Shown here piece after piece: positions 4,280 through 54,186 of a stretch of 54,219 nucleotides of DNA. The translations under genes and the position numbers were made by a program. The notes under the pieces are model-generated. The model saw nothing but the letters and a program-made list of their open reading frames with translations. It had not been told where the DNA came from and did not search any database. How positions within the stretch are numbered: position 1 is the first letter of the stretch; every line of letters starts with the position of its first letter. The stretch spans positions 1 to 54,219 of the IMG/VR virus record IMGVR_UViG_3300037493_001441; one strand, given 5' to 3'. The stretch comes from a virus.

Positions 4280-6286
4280 CTAGTTTCCTTCGTTGAGTAA
4301 GCCACTGCCAACCAGGTAGCGCGTGAGCGCTCCGAGGTCCGCCCTGTTTGGGTCTGTTCTCTGCGCCGCCCAGTTCACCACCCTTGGATCTGTCATGGCC
4401 CTGGAAGCTGCTCTGGAGGCGCCCATGGTGCCGATGGCCATAGTCGGTATGGCTGGGCTCATCAACCCGAAAGGTGCCGCAAGTGTGCCAACACCAGCCC
4501 CAAATATCAGGTCCCGAGCGTGTGCGTTCGCAGCCGTGCCGCTGGAGTTGAACCAGTGCCGTGAGTTGTCCTTCATCATGCTTGCGGCCTTGGCGACCGC
4601 GCTCACCTCCGCCATGACCGCCTCGGAGTTGGGGAAGCCGCTGAACAGCTCCTCGCGCGCCTTGGGGGTCATCTTGTTCCAGTTGGTCAGGAACGTCTGC
4701 GGACTGAACCTGTCGCCGAGGTCGTTCTGGTTTCCGCTGGTGGCGCGCCCCAGGCGGTCGATGATGGTGCCTGCGACACTACCGCGGGTCTCAGGTGTGA
4801 CCGACTTCTTGACCGCCTGCAGCGTGGAGACGTTCTCCTTGGCCGTGTTCTGCAAGGAGTTGAACGCCTGCGCCGGGTCTGAAGTAGTCCTGAACGGGTC
4901 TGTGCGCTCTATGCGGGCCATGCCAGAACGATAGAAGTCGTTTGCGCGGTCCAGCGCACCGCTTGCGCTTGTCGGACGTGTGACTGCAGGCTGTGGCCCC
5001 TTTGCCAGGTCAGACTGACGCGCGGCCTCTTTCATATCGTCGGATAAGGCCCCGTACATCTTACTGATTTCACCGTGCTCTGGGGTCCCGACGACGTCCT
5101 TGGATGCCAATTCCGCTCCAATTCTTGTGCGTATGCCCTTGACAACGCCATATGGCACACCGTTTGGCGGCACCGGCGGGTGGTACAGCCCCGAGCCGTC
5201 TGTGTAGCCGGGAGCGCCACCTTGGTCTGACCGGAGTGTCCTATTCCACTCCGCGATGCGCGGCTGAATCAGCGTTGCTGACGTGGCTGGCGCCCCGGGG
5301 TTGGGGGTCGACATTTGGCTAGACCTGTTGACGGCGTTGGTGACCTGTACCGGGGTGTCAGTGCCAATCGCGCCCTCCGCCATATCGTTCAAGCGCTGGT
5401 AGCCAGGGGCCACCGTGCGGTCATAGAACGAGCCGAGGTCGCGCTTGATCCCCTGCCCCGCGGCCGTGGAGCCACGGTTGTTGGATGCGTTGTCCGCGGC
5501 CCTCGTGGCGGTCGCCTGCATACCGTTGATTGCCGAGTCTCGCGCACGGGCGAAGATGCCCATTGATCCTGGAATGGTCTGCAGCACGGTCTCTAAGCCG
5601 CCCAGCACCCCGTTGCCGGATGCCAGGCCGAGCGTTGGGTTATCCACACCGCCTCTGCGCAGGTCCTCAATGCGCTGGATCATCTCCTGCCTACCGGCCT
5701 CGCCACCGCGGATCATCCCGCGTGCCGCCATCGGAGCAAGGTTTGCCGCACCCATCGGACTCATCCCAGCGGCAATGGCCAGCGCAGGGTTGCCAGAGGC
5801 CTCATAGGCAGCTTTCCCGGCTAAGCCGGATGCAACCCCCATAGCCGCTTGCCCCGGTGTTGTGGCGCCCGCTAATGAGCCACCAGCGGCCTGCAAATAG
5901 CCTCCCTCGTATTCTGGGTTCTGCGCCTGCACCATGGCCTTTGGCATGTTGCGGATGAGGTTCTCACCACTCAGCGGAACGTCAGCGCGGTTGCCGACCT
6001 GCAGCATCTCCGGCGGGGTTTTGCCGGCCATCAGGAACGGTGTGCCCAGTGCCGCCTTGCCCAGGTCCACCACATTGCGCGCGGTGTCCATTGGGAGGCC
6101 CGCAAGCCGCGCCAGGCCCTGGTTAAAGCCTGTGCCTATGGCATTGGGTGCGTCCATCGCGGAGCCCTCCTGCGCGGGCTTCTGGCCCCCTCCTGAGAGG
6201 TGCGCAAGGCCAGCGTCTGAGACCTTCGACAGGTCGCCGGCCGCAAGCGCCGCCAGGTCGGCGTCTGAGAGATTGGTCAAGTCCAT
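4280..6286 (-). CDS. Large putative internal virion/ejection protein
   Basis: 668 residues, rich in Ala, Gly, Pro and Met. An N-terminal acidic helix repeats LSDADLAAL / VSDAGLAHL. Gly/Ala-rich amphipathic segments follow at about 130-190, then a central helical part with a Pro-rich linker, and hydrophobic stretches near 590-640. This architecture fits podovirus ejection proteins that cross the cell envelope with the DNA. Its ATG shares one base with the TAA of the upstream gene (TAATG). No enzymatic motif is recognised. Confidence 0.65.
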   Translation of the reverse strand: MDLTNLSDADLAALAAGDLSKVSDAGLAHLSGGGQKPAQEGSAMDAPNAIGTGFNQGLARLAGLPMDTARNVVDLGKAALGTPFLMAGKTPPEMLQVGNRADVPLSGENLIRNMPKAMVQAQNPEYEGGYLQAAGGSLAGATTPGQAAMGVASGLAGKAAYEASGNPALAIAAGMSPMGAANLAPMAARGMIRGGEAGRQEMIQRIEDLRRGGVDNPTLGLASGNGVLGGLETVLQTIPGSMGIFARARDSAINGMQATATRAADNASNNRGSTAAGQGIKRDLGSFYDRTVAPGYQRLNDMAEGAIGTDTPVQVTNAVNRSSQMSTPNPGAPATSATLIQPRIAEWNRTLRSDQGGAPGYTDGSGLYHPPVPPNGVPYGVVKGIRTRIGAELASKDVVGTPEHGEISKMYGALSDDMKEAARQSDLAKGPQPAVTRPTSASGALDRANDFYRSGMARIERTDPFRTTSDPAQAFNSLQNTAKENVSTLQAVKKSVTPETRGSVAGTIIDRLGRATSGNQNDLGDRFSPQTFLTNWNKMTPKAREELFSGFPNSEAVMAEVSAVAKAASMMKDNSRHWFNSSGTAANAHARDLIFGAGVGTLAAPFGLMSPAIPTMAIGTMGASRAASRAMTDPRVVNWAAQRTDPNRADLGALTRYLVGSGLLNEGN

Positions 6287-39239: not shown

Positions 39240-39725
39240 TTATGCCAGAGCTGCACACTGTCTCGTTGCCACTGTCTGACTACCGTACTTTGTGCGAATA
39301 TCGTCCATTGTTGATTTTCCACGCCCGCCTTGTTGGTCAACAGGCCGAAAGTACCACATGAACTTCTTACTTGCCCAATAGTACCCAACGGCTTTCAGAA
39401 CCTCTTTGTGCGTTTTGGTGTCACCTGACACCCAGACCCACAATCCGCACACCTCAATAATCAATCCAGGCAGAGTCACAATGGCGTTGATAGCATCATT
39501 CAAGCGGTCAGCGTAGCCTTGATCCGTATTGATTGATGGTAACGAGCCATAGTTGGATTGAAGTATGTTATAGGCCTCATTCACAGTCTGCATCATTTCA
39601 GTGCTACCGCCTTTGTCTGGGTGATATTTCTGAGCAGCACGACGGTACGCTTGTTTTACGGTAGCTTCGTCTGCAATACTTCCCGGTTCCATACCCAGAA
39701 TATCAGCGGCTTGAGAGATTTTCAT
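39240..39725 (-). CDS. J-domain (DnaJ-like) protein with C-terminal phage domain
   Basis: 161 residues. A J-domain covers about 1-60: ADILGM...VKQAYRRAAQKYHPDKGG with the HPD tripeptide that stimulates Hsp70/DnaK ATPase. The second domain has LNDAINAIVTLPGLIIEVCGLWVWVSGDT and WASKKFMWYFRP, a widespread phage/plasmid domain of unknown function. It is cytoplasmic. It could recruit host DnaK to a phage target. A strong promoter-like sequence lies upstream. Confidence 0.85.
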   Translation of the reverse strand: MKISQAADILGMEPGSIADEATVKQAYRRAAQKYHPDKGGSTEMMQTVNEAYNILQSNYGSLPSINTDQGYADRLNDAINAIVTLPGLIIEVCGLWVWVSGDTKTHKEVLKAVGYYWASKKFMWYFRPVDQQGGRGKSTMDDIRTKYGSQTVATRQCAALA

Positions 39726-39782: not shown

Positions 39783-39811
39783 ATTATAGTCCTACTATTC
39801 GGACAAATCAA
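39783..39811 (-). promoter_or_regulatory. Sigma70-type promoter for the J-domain operon
   Basis: The reverse strand has TTGATT, 17 bases, TATAAT. The spacer contains GTCC and GGAC as an inverted repeat around 8 bases, a possible operator. It lies 58 bases upstream of ATG 39725. Confidence 0.65.
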
Positions 39812-40323
39812 CATTTATTTTGTAGGGGTTTATACCTAGTTCCAGCAAATCTTATAAACTTGTCACGGGCTTCTGCCATTCAATAGCATGAATTATCACC
39901 CGAAGGCCCCCCTTCCCCATTGACTGAGGTTAGAAGGAATCACCACCCTTGCGGGTACATCAATGATTGGAGTCGTTGTTACCCTCTCCAATACCCTGGG
40001 CGTTGATGTTCGGCCAGCCCATCAGCTCACATGCAGGTAGTTGCCCGGTGCCCTTACGGCGTGTCTGATTAACGGTACGTGAGAACTGCCCCGCTTGGCC
40101 CGTGAACTTATGCCATTGGGTGACTCAGACCCTAGAACGCAAAAAAGCCTTTACTGCTGCGCTCTGGTGTCGGGGGCCACCACTCGTTAGAGATAAACGC
40201 ATGAGTAAAGGCTCATGTTGATTATCGAAGAGACCCCCGTCACTTGACCAGCAAATGATAACACTAATCCATGTCCTTTCATACAGCATAGGGAAAGTAC
40301 CTAGAAAATACTTCAAATAAACC
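39812..40323. other. 512-base non-coding, highly structured region between divergent promoters
   Basis: No convincing gene is seen. Inverted repeats crowd 39902-40217: GAAGG/CCTTC (39902-39915), ACCC/GGGT (39945-39956), ATTGGAG/CTCCAAT (39966-39992) nested in CATCAA/TTGATG (39959-40008), and AGCCTTTACT/AGTAAAGGCT (40146-40213). It may be a non-coding RNA, a leader, or an origin; no tRNA fold was recognised. Confidence 0.55.
40141..40217 (-). terminator. Attenuator- or terminator-like structure
   Basis: Read leftward, the 10-base arms AGCCTTTACT and AGTAAAGGCT are followed by TTTTTT (40146-40141), like a rho-independent terminator with a 48-base loop. One arm overlaps a competing perfect hairpin CATGAG/CTCATG (40200-40217). 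Two alternative folds sharing one arm resemble an attenuator. Confidence 0.45.
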
Positions 40324-40351
40324 TTGAAACGCACAGTTTGCGTGTTATAAT
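40324..40351 (+). promoter_or_regulatory. Sigma70-type promoter with internal operator-like palindrome
   Basis: TTGAAA, 16 bases, TATAAT. The spacer holds the inverted repeat ACGCA/TGCGT around 5 bases (40329-40343), well placed for repression. It lies 31 bases before ATG 40382 and drives the short rightward cassette. Confidence 0.75.
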
Positions 40352-40381
40352 TCATTCATCGCAACACAACGGAGAAACAAA

Positions 40382-40657
40382 ATGGCAACACTAACAATCA
40401 CTGGCGCAATTCGCGAATGCAATTGCAACCATTGCGGACGGCCTCTAAAGCTTGGTGTCCGAACCGACGAGGTTGGGACTATTGGAGCCGATTGTTTTGT
40501 AAAGCTGACAACCCGCGATACAAAGCGGTTCAACGGAAACGGTCGCCCAAGTGCAGACATTGTTAAAAATTACGCCCTTATCGCGAACAAAGGGCTTGCA
40601 TACGCAGCACAATGCTACGGCTACAGCGCCCGCCACTTCATTTTTGCCGCAGCCTAA
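40382..40657 (+). CDS. Small Cys-motif phage protein
   Basis: 91 residues. CNCNHCGRPLKLG near 13-25 and IGADCFVKLT near 34 form a zinc-binding-like pattern that I know from small phage proteins. Directly behind the strong promoter, with GGAG upstream of ATG. Role unknown. Confidence 0.75.
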   Translation: MATLTITGAIRECNCNHCGRPLKLGVRTDEVGTIGADCFVKLTTRDTKRFNGNGRPSADIVKNYALIANKGLAYAAQCYGYSARHFIFAAA

Positions 40658-45001: not shown

Positions 45002-45288
45002 ACCGCTTCTGCCTGCTTAAAAATGGATTTGTTTTTGTGAATCTTTTTAGTAAAGTGGCTCACTGGCTGAAAGCAGTAAAACGACCGAATCTTTGCGTTT
45101 GGCTCGGAGAAAAAGATTTCTGCAACGCGCCATTCGATAAACGCCGGATACCGGGCCTTGTGTTCCCGCAGTTTCAGAATGAATCGCTGCGCCATCCAGC
45201 GTTCTTCTGGCTTTTCACAAGACCTGACGATTGCCCATTCCCACTCTGGAAACTCTGACGAAAGATCGTTGATCGCATGGATGTTCAT
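44998..45288 (-). CDS. Hypothetical replication-operon protein
   Basis: 96 residues between the initiator-like protein and DnaB, coupled on both sides by ATGA. It has FPEWEWAIVRSCEKPEERWMAQRFI and a Lys-rich C-terminus. Its position suggests a loader or modulator, but nothing in the sequence proves it. Confidence 0.6.
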   Translation of the reverse strand: MNIHAINDLSSEFPEWEWAIVRSCEKPEERWMAQRFILKLREHKARYPAFIEWRVAEIFFSEPNAKIRSFYCFQPVSHFTKKIHKNKSIFKQAEAV

Positions 45289-46313
45289 GCTGCAATCTCC
45301 TTGGCTTTGTTTTCGTAGGAACCTTGAATCACTTTTTCAAAGTTCGATTTGTTGACCAGCCAAATCAAATCGCAGGCCCATTCGGTTTGTCGGCCAGTCA
45401 GAAAATCAGAGTCGGCAACGTAGGCAAAGAATCGACCAAACCACTCAACACCCTCAGCCTCTGTGGTCGCCATGCGTTCGCCCTTGCGCTTGCCTTTTTC
45501 GTGGCAGGCCGTCATCAGCCAAGCCCAACGCGATTTCAGGGTTGGCGCGTTTTTTCCATCGCGCCACAGGCTGCGGGTTGGTTGTGCAAGTCCGGGGAGT
45601 TTGTCAGCAAAGGCATCAAGGATTTTTTCGTGTGGGCAGTCGATAACCGAAGGTTTCGACAAAGAAGGTATTACTCTCTTCTTATCTGTATCTGTTCTGT
45701 TCTGTGGAGTTACAGTAACCGTTACAGGTCGTGACTCCATCCAAGAAAGCCACAACTTTTCGGTTGCTTTGTTGTTGAATGAATAGCCTGCTTCCGCAGG
45801 CGTACGCCCTGCTTTTCCGCTGTTGCATGTCTTGCAAGCAGTAGCTAGGTTTTCAATGCTGTCATCCCCACCTTTACAGGTAGGCAGAACATGGTCAATG
45901 CAAAGGTTTTCATCTGATCCGCAGTAGACACATGCGTGACCATCACGTTGGTTAACGGTTACAGCGTGTTTTGTGTAACCGTTACTTGTTAGACCGAGTG
46001 CTTTCCTGTTCGCCCGGTACTTCTGAACCCTTGACACACTGTTGTCAGCAGTGAACTGCCGCTTTTCCCAATTCAGCAGATTCCAATCGGAATCAATGAA
46101 CCCTTTTTTTATGAAAAGTTCTTTTGTTTCCTCTGTTGTAGCAAGATCAATGCGAAGGGAAAAAGCAACCTCTTCATCAGTTCTTCCCTCAAGCTGGTCA
46201 GAGCAACGCATACACATAACCATGATGTAACGGCGCTGCATAGACTCAGAAAGCATCTGCACCTTGGGATCGTGCGAGAACTCGGAGTACATGCGAAACC
46301 AAGGATTTGACAT
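45285..46313 (-). CDS. Replication initiator/loader-like protein with an internal HNH domain
   Basis: 342 residues. The N-terminus (NPWFRMYSEFSHDPKVQML to RVQKYRANRKA, about 1-106) is the winged-helix-like start common to phage replication proteins. Residues about 111-180 are a full HNH domain: RDGHACVYCGS, LCIDHVLPTCKGG, NLATACKTCN. The C-terminal part (PHEKILDAFADKLPGL...LKSRWAWLMTACH) is typical of phage replication proteins. The HNH domain sits in frame where homologues have a flexible linker, a fusion or nuclease insertion. Confidence 0.75.
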   Translation of the reverse strand: MSNPWFRMYSEFSHDPKVQMLSESMQRRYIMVMCMRCSDQLEGRTDEEVAFSLRIDLATTEETKELFIKKGFIDSDWNLLNWEKRQFTADNSVSRVQKYRANRKALGLTSNGYTKHAVTVNQRDGHACVYCGSDENLCIDHVLPTCKGGDDSIENLATACKTCNSGKAGRTPAEAGYSFNNKATEKLWLSWMESRPVTVTVTPQNRTDTDKKRVIPSLSKPSVIDCPHEKILDAFADKLPGLAQPTRSLWRDGKNAPTLKSRWAWLMTACHEKGKRKGERMATTEAEGVEWFGRFFAYVADSDFLTGRQTEWACDLIWLVNKSNFEKVIQGSYENKAKEIAA

Positions 46314-53767: not shown

Positions 53768-54135
53768 ACTTAGATGACCTGACTATCGGACAAGCAAAAG
53801 AACTAGCTATGCTTTTCACCCAAGCAGGCACTGCGCCTGCGACAAACCCTGTCCATCCGTTTGTCGGAAAGTACGTCATTGCACGTTGCTATTCCGCAGG
53901 TGTACATGCTGGTGAAGTCGTGATCGTAGACGGTGAAAACGTCATCCTCAAAGACTCCCGCCGCTTGTGGAGTTGGAAAGCAAAAGACGGGATAGCACTT
54001 TCCGGTGTCGCGCAGAACGGATTGCAGTCCGAAGGAAAAGTTGACACGCTAAATCCAGAGATTGCACTGACAGGGGTATGTGAGTTAATCCCATGCAGCG
54101 TGAAAGCGCGGGAGTCTATTGATGGCTTCAAATAA
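53764..54135 (+). CDS. DUF6948-like phage protein
   Basis: 123 residues. GKYVIARCYSAGVHAGEVVIVDGENVILKDSRRLWSWKAKDG and ALTGVCELIPC match the DUF6948 family of phage/mobile-element proteins, of unknown function. It precedes the Gly-X repeat gene, an order I recall in other phages. Its 3' part is also the start of the window. Confidence 0.8.
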   Translation: MNLDDLTIGQAKELAMLFTQAGTAPATNPVHPFVGKYVIARCYSAGVHAGEVVIVDGENVILKDSRRLWSWKAKDGIALSGVAQNGLQSEGKVDTLNPEIALTGVCELIPCSVKARESIDGFK

Positions 54136-54186
54136 AATTTTTACCGATGGCGATGGCTATGGCTATGGCGATGGCTCTGGCTATGG
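54061..54186. repeat. Terminal direct repeat, right copy
   Basis: Identical to 1-126. Beyond 54186 the sequence continues within the same repeat array but 108 bases ahead of the left copy (54171-54219 equals 219-267). Confidence 0.95.

Follow-up and report, generated by a model that had tools for sequence, protein, structure and literature searches.

The window, by which we mean the whole 54,219-nucleotide stretch of viral DNA analyzed here, contains a gap at positions 39812–40323 that lies between a leftward DnaJ-like gene and a divergent rightward gene. The preliminary description of this DNA had placed divergent promoters at the two edges of the gap, and both can be recognized as promoter-like sites:

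39783–39811, minus strand: leftward promoter of the DnaJ-like gene 39240–39725, with a TATAAT box
40324–40351, plus strand: divergent rightward promoter of gene 40382–40657, part of a cassette that recurs in other phages

Both promoters look real, because the rightward promoter with its leader (TATAATTCATTCATCGCAACACA) is found again in other phages and the DnaJ relatives at two other phage loci (L002 and L003) also have a TATAAT box. The TATAATTCATTCATCGCAACACA cassette occurs once in the window (40346–40368), and in roughly ten phage contigs it takes the -10/leader position ahead of genes that are unrelated, the carriers besides the window being L014, L017, L054, L065, L066, L067, L068, L069, and L072. 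Within the DnaJ promoter, the -35 and -10 flank a short dyad, GTCC-N8-GGAC, which could be an operator.

The gap was also described as non-coding and free of tRNA genes, and our analyses agreed with this on both counts. There was no hexamer signal for coding, and the one long open reading frame (40125–40355, minus strand) had no relative, so a coding gene in the gap was rejected. A possible leader peptide spotted by eye within the element described below, MSLYSCVYL, was discarded as it had no Shine-Dalgarno sequence. No convincing direct DNA homologs of the gap were found in phage and plasmid collections; a match of 26 nt to phiCbK, in its tRNA-island DNA, was attributed to chance. Elsewhere in the window, the first 126 bases recur at 54061–54186, running into a degenerate ATGGCT/CGATGG tandem repeat, and the contig is therefore probably a closed circle that was broken at the repeat. 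The gene at 45285–46313 encodes a replication-initiator-like protein with a DnaD-like start and a replication-initiation-like end; its middle matches HNH endonucleases, and it looks as if an HNH domain had been inserted.

The number of inverted repeats in the gap, originally given as at least five, did not exceed the chance expectation (arms of at least 7 with a loop of up to 60: 4 observed versus 1.4 expected, p = 0.055; arms of at least 8: 1 versus 0.33), and the whole 531 nt folded only slightly better than shuffled sequences (z of −1.39 on the minus strand and −0.83 on the plus strand). The sole outstanding piece of the gap was 40141–40220 on the minus strand, with a z of about −5. A genome-wide fold scan ranked this piece within roughly the top dozen structured sites, several of the others being inside genes, and folding energy alone was thus insufficient evidence for it. 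The 10-base arms (40204–40213 and 40146–40155) and the perfect CATGAG/CTCATG hairpin (40200–40217) reported for this piece are present as described. Taken together with the relatives introduced below, the element can be modeled as an RNA with the following parts, all on the minus strand:

40255–40282: probable RNA promoter, ATGAAA-16-TATCAT with TG before the -10; a -10-like box is equally spaced from P0 in the other members
40141–40249 (~110 nt): RNA core, comprising P0, the P1–P4 three-way junction, and a U-run, from the covariance-model match, covariation, and the folds of all members
40223–40248: P0, the 5′ hairpin; its loop 7-mer CGGGGGU (40239–40233) is complementary to the P4 loop
40204–40213: P1 5′ arm, AGCCUUUACU; across the family, both partners vary in 6 of 10 P1 pairs
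40146–40155: P1 3′ arm, AGUAAAGGCU, from the inverted-repeat count and covariation
40195–40200: P2 5′ arm, GCGUUU; both partners vary in 4 of 6 pairs
40159–40164: P2 3′ arm, GAGCGC, from covariation
40183–40192: P3, a small variable hairpin (CUC-UAAC-GAG) from the predicted fold, differing in sequence and present in all members
40165–40182: P4 hairpin, UGGUG...CACCA, with loop 7-mer GCCCCCG (40177–40171); both partners vary in 4 of 5 pairs
40141–40146: U6 run right after P1, terminator-like; 4–6 U in all members
39830–40140: possible diverged 3′ domain, in which resemblance to the relatives is limited to the first ~25 nt

BLAST with the element identified no relatives, and none were found around relatives of DnaJ, DnaB, and TerL. 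Scanning of IMG/VR with a gapped pattern of the arms and T-run (GCCTTTAC-N25..55-GTAAAGGCTTTT) gave matches in L096, L100, L101, and L103, each of 71 nt versus the 70 of the window. These four share GCCTTTACTCATGCGTT...CGCAGYAGTAAAGGCTTTT with the window and have different inner hairpins; L097 was a more distant match. Three further loci pulled in by the pattern (L098, L099, and L102) did not have the inner parts and were not counted, the weak hit in L102 being a bare hairpin. A covariance model trained on the four matches only, with the window excluded, was used to search 0.98 Mb of loci and recovered the window at 40142–40214 with 70.6 bits and an E-value of 9e-15. The same model identified L097 (6e-10), L002/L003 (1.5e-8), and L065 (4.5e-6), the last two matches coming from loci that had been fetched for other reasons. 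In L065 the sequence of P1 has been rewritten and its pairing retained.

Eight members were thus available: the window and seven uncultured phages (L096, L097, L100, L101, L103, L003, and L065). Near-copies among the records are L100 and L101, both of which were counted, and L002, which closely resembles L003. A search of 65 other records gave no further member, and the model gave no match next to the DnaJ relatives L004, L005, and L091. There were 0 matches in 399 Pseudomonadota genomes, a weak result as that search had no positive control. The family is probably larger than eight members, since the viral scan relied on an exact-arm pattern.

Covariation analysis in related phages, which had been proposed as a check, supported the paired helices. 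In the eight-member alignment 96.9% of cells were paired, versus 82.7% in shuffles, and 14 of the 21 core pairs (74 nt) changed on both sides yet stayed paired, versus 3.5 in shuffles. With the partners displaced by 1–3 columns, no more than about 51% paired. Fitting of the alignment to the covariance model biases it towards the structure; we consider this a minor worry given the size of the contrast and the rewritten P1 of L065. Read on the sense strand, the alignment had 9 G.U versus 1 A.C cells, indicating that the minus strand pairs better, as expected of an RNA. Members fold as P0 followed by P1 closing P2, P3, and P4, with the qualifications that L097 has no clear P4 stem and that P0 of the window folds less cleanly than P0 of its relatives. 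Lack of the arms in related phages had been named in the preliminary description as a ground for refuting its reading, and the relatives do keep them.

A cmscan of the window, L096, L097, L100, L101, and L103 against Rfam 15 gave no family match, and permissive limits yielded chance hits only. Based on these sequence comparisons, 40249–40141 on the minus strand is almost certainly a member of a real and new phage-borne RNA family. It appears new by Rfam 15 and by a literature search that covered open-access work and not all literature.

In each of the seven members that allowed a judgment, the RNA and the late genes share a strand. In the window it heads the DnaJ...TerL operon, separating the leftward replication and late operons. 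It precedes TerS-TerL-portal in L100 and is upstream of TerS, a Terminase_2 protein, in L101. In L003 it lies between TerL and a P22-type portal, in L065 after TerL, and in L097 in the late operon between replication genes and NinB...TerL. In L103 it is 12 kb from TerL, within the late operon, between head closure and tail-fibre/ejection genes. The terminases of the carriers are of different families (TerL of the window is phrog_38), and the RNA therefore seems to be passed as a unit between different types of phage. The TerL relatives L075 and L076 do not have the RNA and its carriers have ordinary terminases, which indicates that packaging in general can do without it.

Three observations concern neighboring or comparable regions. 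A J-domain gene adjoins the RNA in two phages, co-directionally in the window (39240–39725) and divergently in L003 (2790–3284); the DnaJ-like gene of L002 is at 615–1106. The gap upstream of the terminase genes in L075 (4656–5128) contains numerous GGTTACAA/TTGTAACC repeats together with an AT-rich run and is a likely replication origin. In L006, the long region upstream of a relative of gene 40382 (5330–6030) is noncoding-looking and rich in inverted repeats, with no resemblance to the new RNA.

An origin was among the functions suggested initially, and more broadly the element could be a cos, pac, or origin site whose hairpins matter in the DNA. Such a DNA element would suit the position upstream of terminase genes in the window, L100, and L101, as well as the quasi-palindrome of the window, which folds on both strands. 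However, conservation follows RNA pairing with G.U wobbles and the excess of G.U over A.C cells favors one strand as RNA, the stretch has neither iterons nor a DnaA box, and the element is away from terS in L003 and L103, in the latter 12 kb from TerL. We consider a DNA element improbable, and the suggestion of an origin was not upheld.

We infer that the RNA is transcribed, with a probable 5′ end near 40248. All eight members have, about 6 nt upstream of P0, a -10-like hexamer whose second base is A and whose sixth is T (TATAAT twice, TATCAT, TATAGT, CACAAT, and GAGAAT; only AAACTT in L100/L101). As the hexamers were picked by alignment, we regard this box as suggestive only. At the other end, P1 is a G+C-containing stem directly followed by the U-run, which is the form of an intrinsic terminator. 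Past the U-run, conservation goes on for ~100–280 nt in L100, L101, L103, L065, and L097, such that the RNA of these phages may reach a length of about 400 nt; in the window and L003, similarity to this 3′ domain is limited to the ~25 nt that follow P1. The strong stem, the U6 run, and the location between leftward replication and late operons would fit a mere intrinsic terminator that insulates the late operon of the window and does nothing further. We think this very improbable, as it leaves unexplained the conserved inner helices, the match between the P0 and P4 loops described below, and identical 15-base arms in unrelated phages.

The main rival to the function that we propose is a cis-acting leader of the late genes, of the put-type or Q-dependent kind, in which the fold would decide between a stop at the U-run and read-through, with a P0–P4 kiss taking part in the switch. 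This is related to the attenuator that had been suggested from the window, where the terminator and antiterminator folds are indeed near-isoenergetic. A leader of this kind would be consistent with P1 and the U-run being terminator-like in all members, with the element having its own -10 box, and with its position on the late-gene strand upstream of the terminase in the window, L100, and L101. The relatives, however, speak against it. The best structure without P1 is 3–18 kcal/mol worse across the family, and the CATGAG hairpin is not conserved, being present in L096 and absent from L100, L101, and L103. In addition, only 4 U follow P1 in L100, L101, and L065, the L103 element lies within the late operon or at its distal end, and conserved sequence runs past the U-run in five members. 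A balance of terminator and antiterminator is attractive in the window alone and was not borne out across the family. We therefore see no support for attenuation as the main function and judge a cis-acting leader to be rather unlikely.

Every member has a hairpin region upstream of P1 that includes seven consecutive bases able to pair with the P4 loop. The P0/P4 loops are CCGGAAU/AUUCCGG in L100 and L101, GUCGCAA/UUGCGAC in L103 and L003, CUCGAAC/GUUCGAG in L096, GUAGGAA/UUCCUAC in L097, UUCGCAC/GUGCGAA in L065, and CGGGGGU/GCCCCCG in the window, the last with one G.U. These are six distinct loop pairs, in which pairing is 7/7 in all eight members, while cross-combinations of distinct loops give 1–6 pairs; 6 of the 7 loop positions vary between phages. 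Compared with shuffled upstream sequence, the complement was significant at p < 0.001 in six members, with p = 0.029 in L097 and 0.046 in the window. Both loops being on one RNA, the sequence is compatible with an intra- as well as an intermolecular kiss. We lean towards the view that the kiss, within or between molecules, is an essential feature of the RNA.

The C4 RNA of phage P1 and the CI RNA of phage P4 are antisense RNAs, short and phage-encoded, with stem-loops and phage-specific complementary segments. An immunity RNA of this type, in which the P4 loop would pair with its own transcript or that of an incoming phage and stop expression, would set the immunity type by its loop letters. 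The new RNA is also short, with stem-loops and phage-specific complementary segments upstream, and the divergence of its loops resembles specificity. On the other hand, its complement is always a hairpin belonging to the RNA itself, the 400 nt downstream contained no significant complement in seven members and hence no conserved target, there is no match to Rfam C4 (RF01695), and the neighbors are late genes and not immunity genes. The third, downstream segment of the CI type is absent. There is, in our estimation, only a small chance that the RNA belongs to this class.

Our preferred reading, which we put forward tentatively by analogy, is of a late RNA that self-associates by kissing loops and works like the phi29 pRNA without being a member of that family. 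A leftward noncoding RNA would start near 40248 with P0, continue into a P1-closed three-way junction of P2, P3, and P4, and end at the U-run, being transcribed late from its own promoter. The P0 and P4 loops would kiss between molecules, and the resulting dimer, chain, or ring would act in trans late in infection. Its most plausible task would be in the filling or assembly of heads, much as is the case for pRNA and its paired right- and left-hand loops. In the main sub-variant, an intramolecular kiss would merely hold a single RNA in shape. A trans-acting late role in assembly or packaging is possible rather than probable, and the varying position of the RNA within the late operon counts against our reading, as do the ordinary terminases of the carriers, the lack of the RNA in L075 and L076, the place of P0 outside the junction, and, in the window, the G.U in the loop match and the less clean P0. 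The earlier term "regulatory RNA" applies to the extent that a conserved, covarying, leftward RNA is there, and to that extent only.

Several known RNAs resemble parts of this arrangement. RNAI and RNAII of ColE1 form kissing hairpins with fully complementary 7-nt loops on sense and antisense RNAs; the hairpin loops of the new RNA are alike in length and complementarity, with the difference that both are in one RNA. GOLLD and ROOL are also phage-borne structured RNAs, and their molecules are joined by kissing loops that hold cages together (PMC12286853). The new RNA is smaller than these, has other helices and no Rfam match, and there are no tRNA genes in the window.

The closest comparison is with phi29 pRNA, whose right- and left-hand loops covary and whose three-way junction is kept while the sequence drifts (PMC12670572). 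Packaging RNA has been described as unique to phi29-like phages (PMC11476376). The new RNA does not match Rfam Phage_pRNA, its loop pair is of 7 bases versus 3–4 in pRNA, and it has a U-run, to which several members add more conserved sequence on the 3′ side. Both pRNA loops are arms of the junction, whereas P0 is 5′ of P1 and outside the junction in all members. The new RNA also occurs in phages with TerL-type terminases, and the phrog_38 TerL of the window is not a phi29-type packaging ATPase. Nevertheless, both are phage-encoded with a core of roughly 110–120 nt (PMC12670572; PMC11476376), both have a mutually complementary, covarying loop pair (7/7 in the eight members here), and both have a three-way junction, indicated here by covariation for P1, P2, and P4 and by folding for P3. 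It is conceivable, if unlikely, that an RNA which self-assembles for packaging or head assembly was invented a second time, unrelated to pRNA, by phages that have ordinary terminases, and that its loop pairs diverged such that the RNA of each phage recognizes its own kind only. At the least, the findings add a structured RNA family that is absent from Rfam 15. If that reading is true, RNA parts of phage assembly would be more common than thought, and the logic of pRNA, a three-way junction with covarying partner loops, would exist separately in phages with ordinary terminases.
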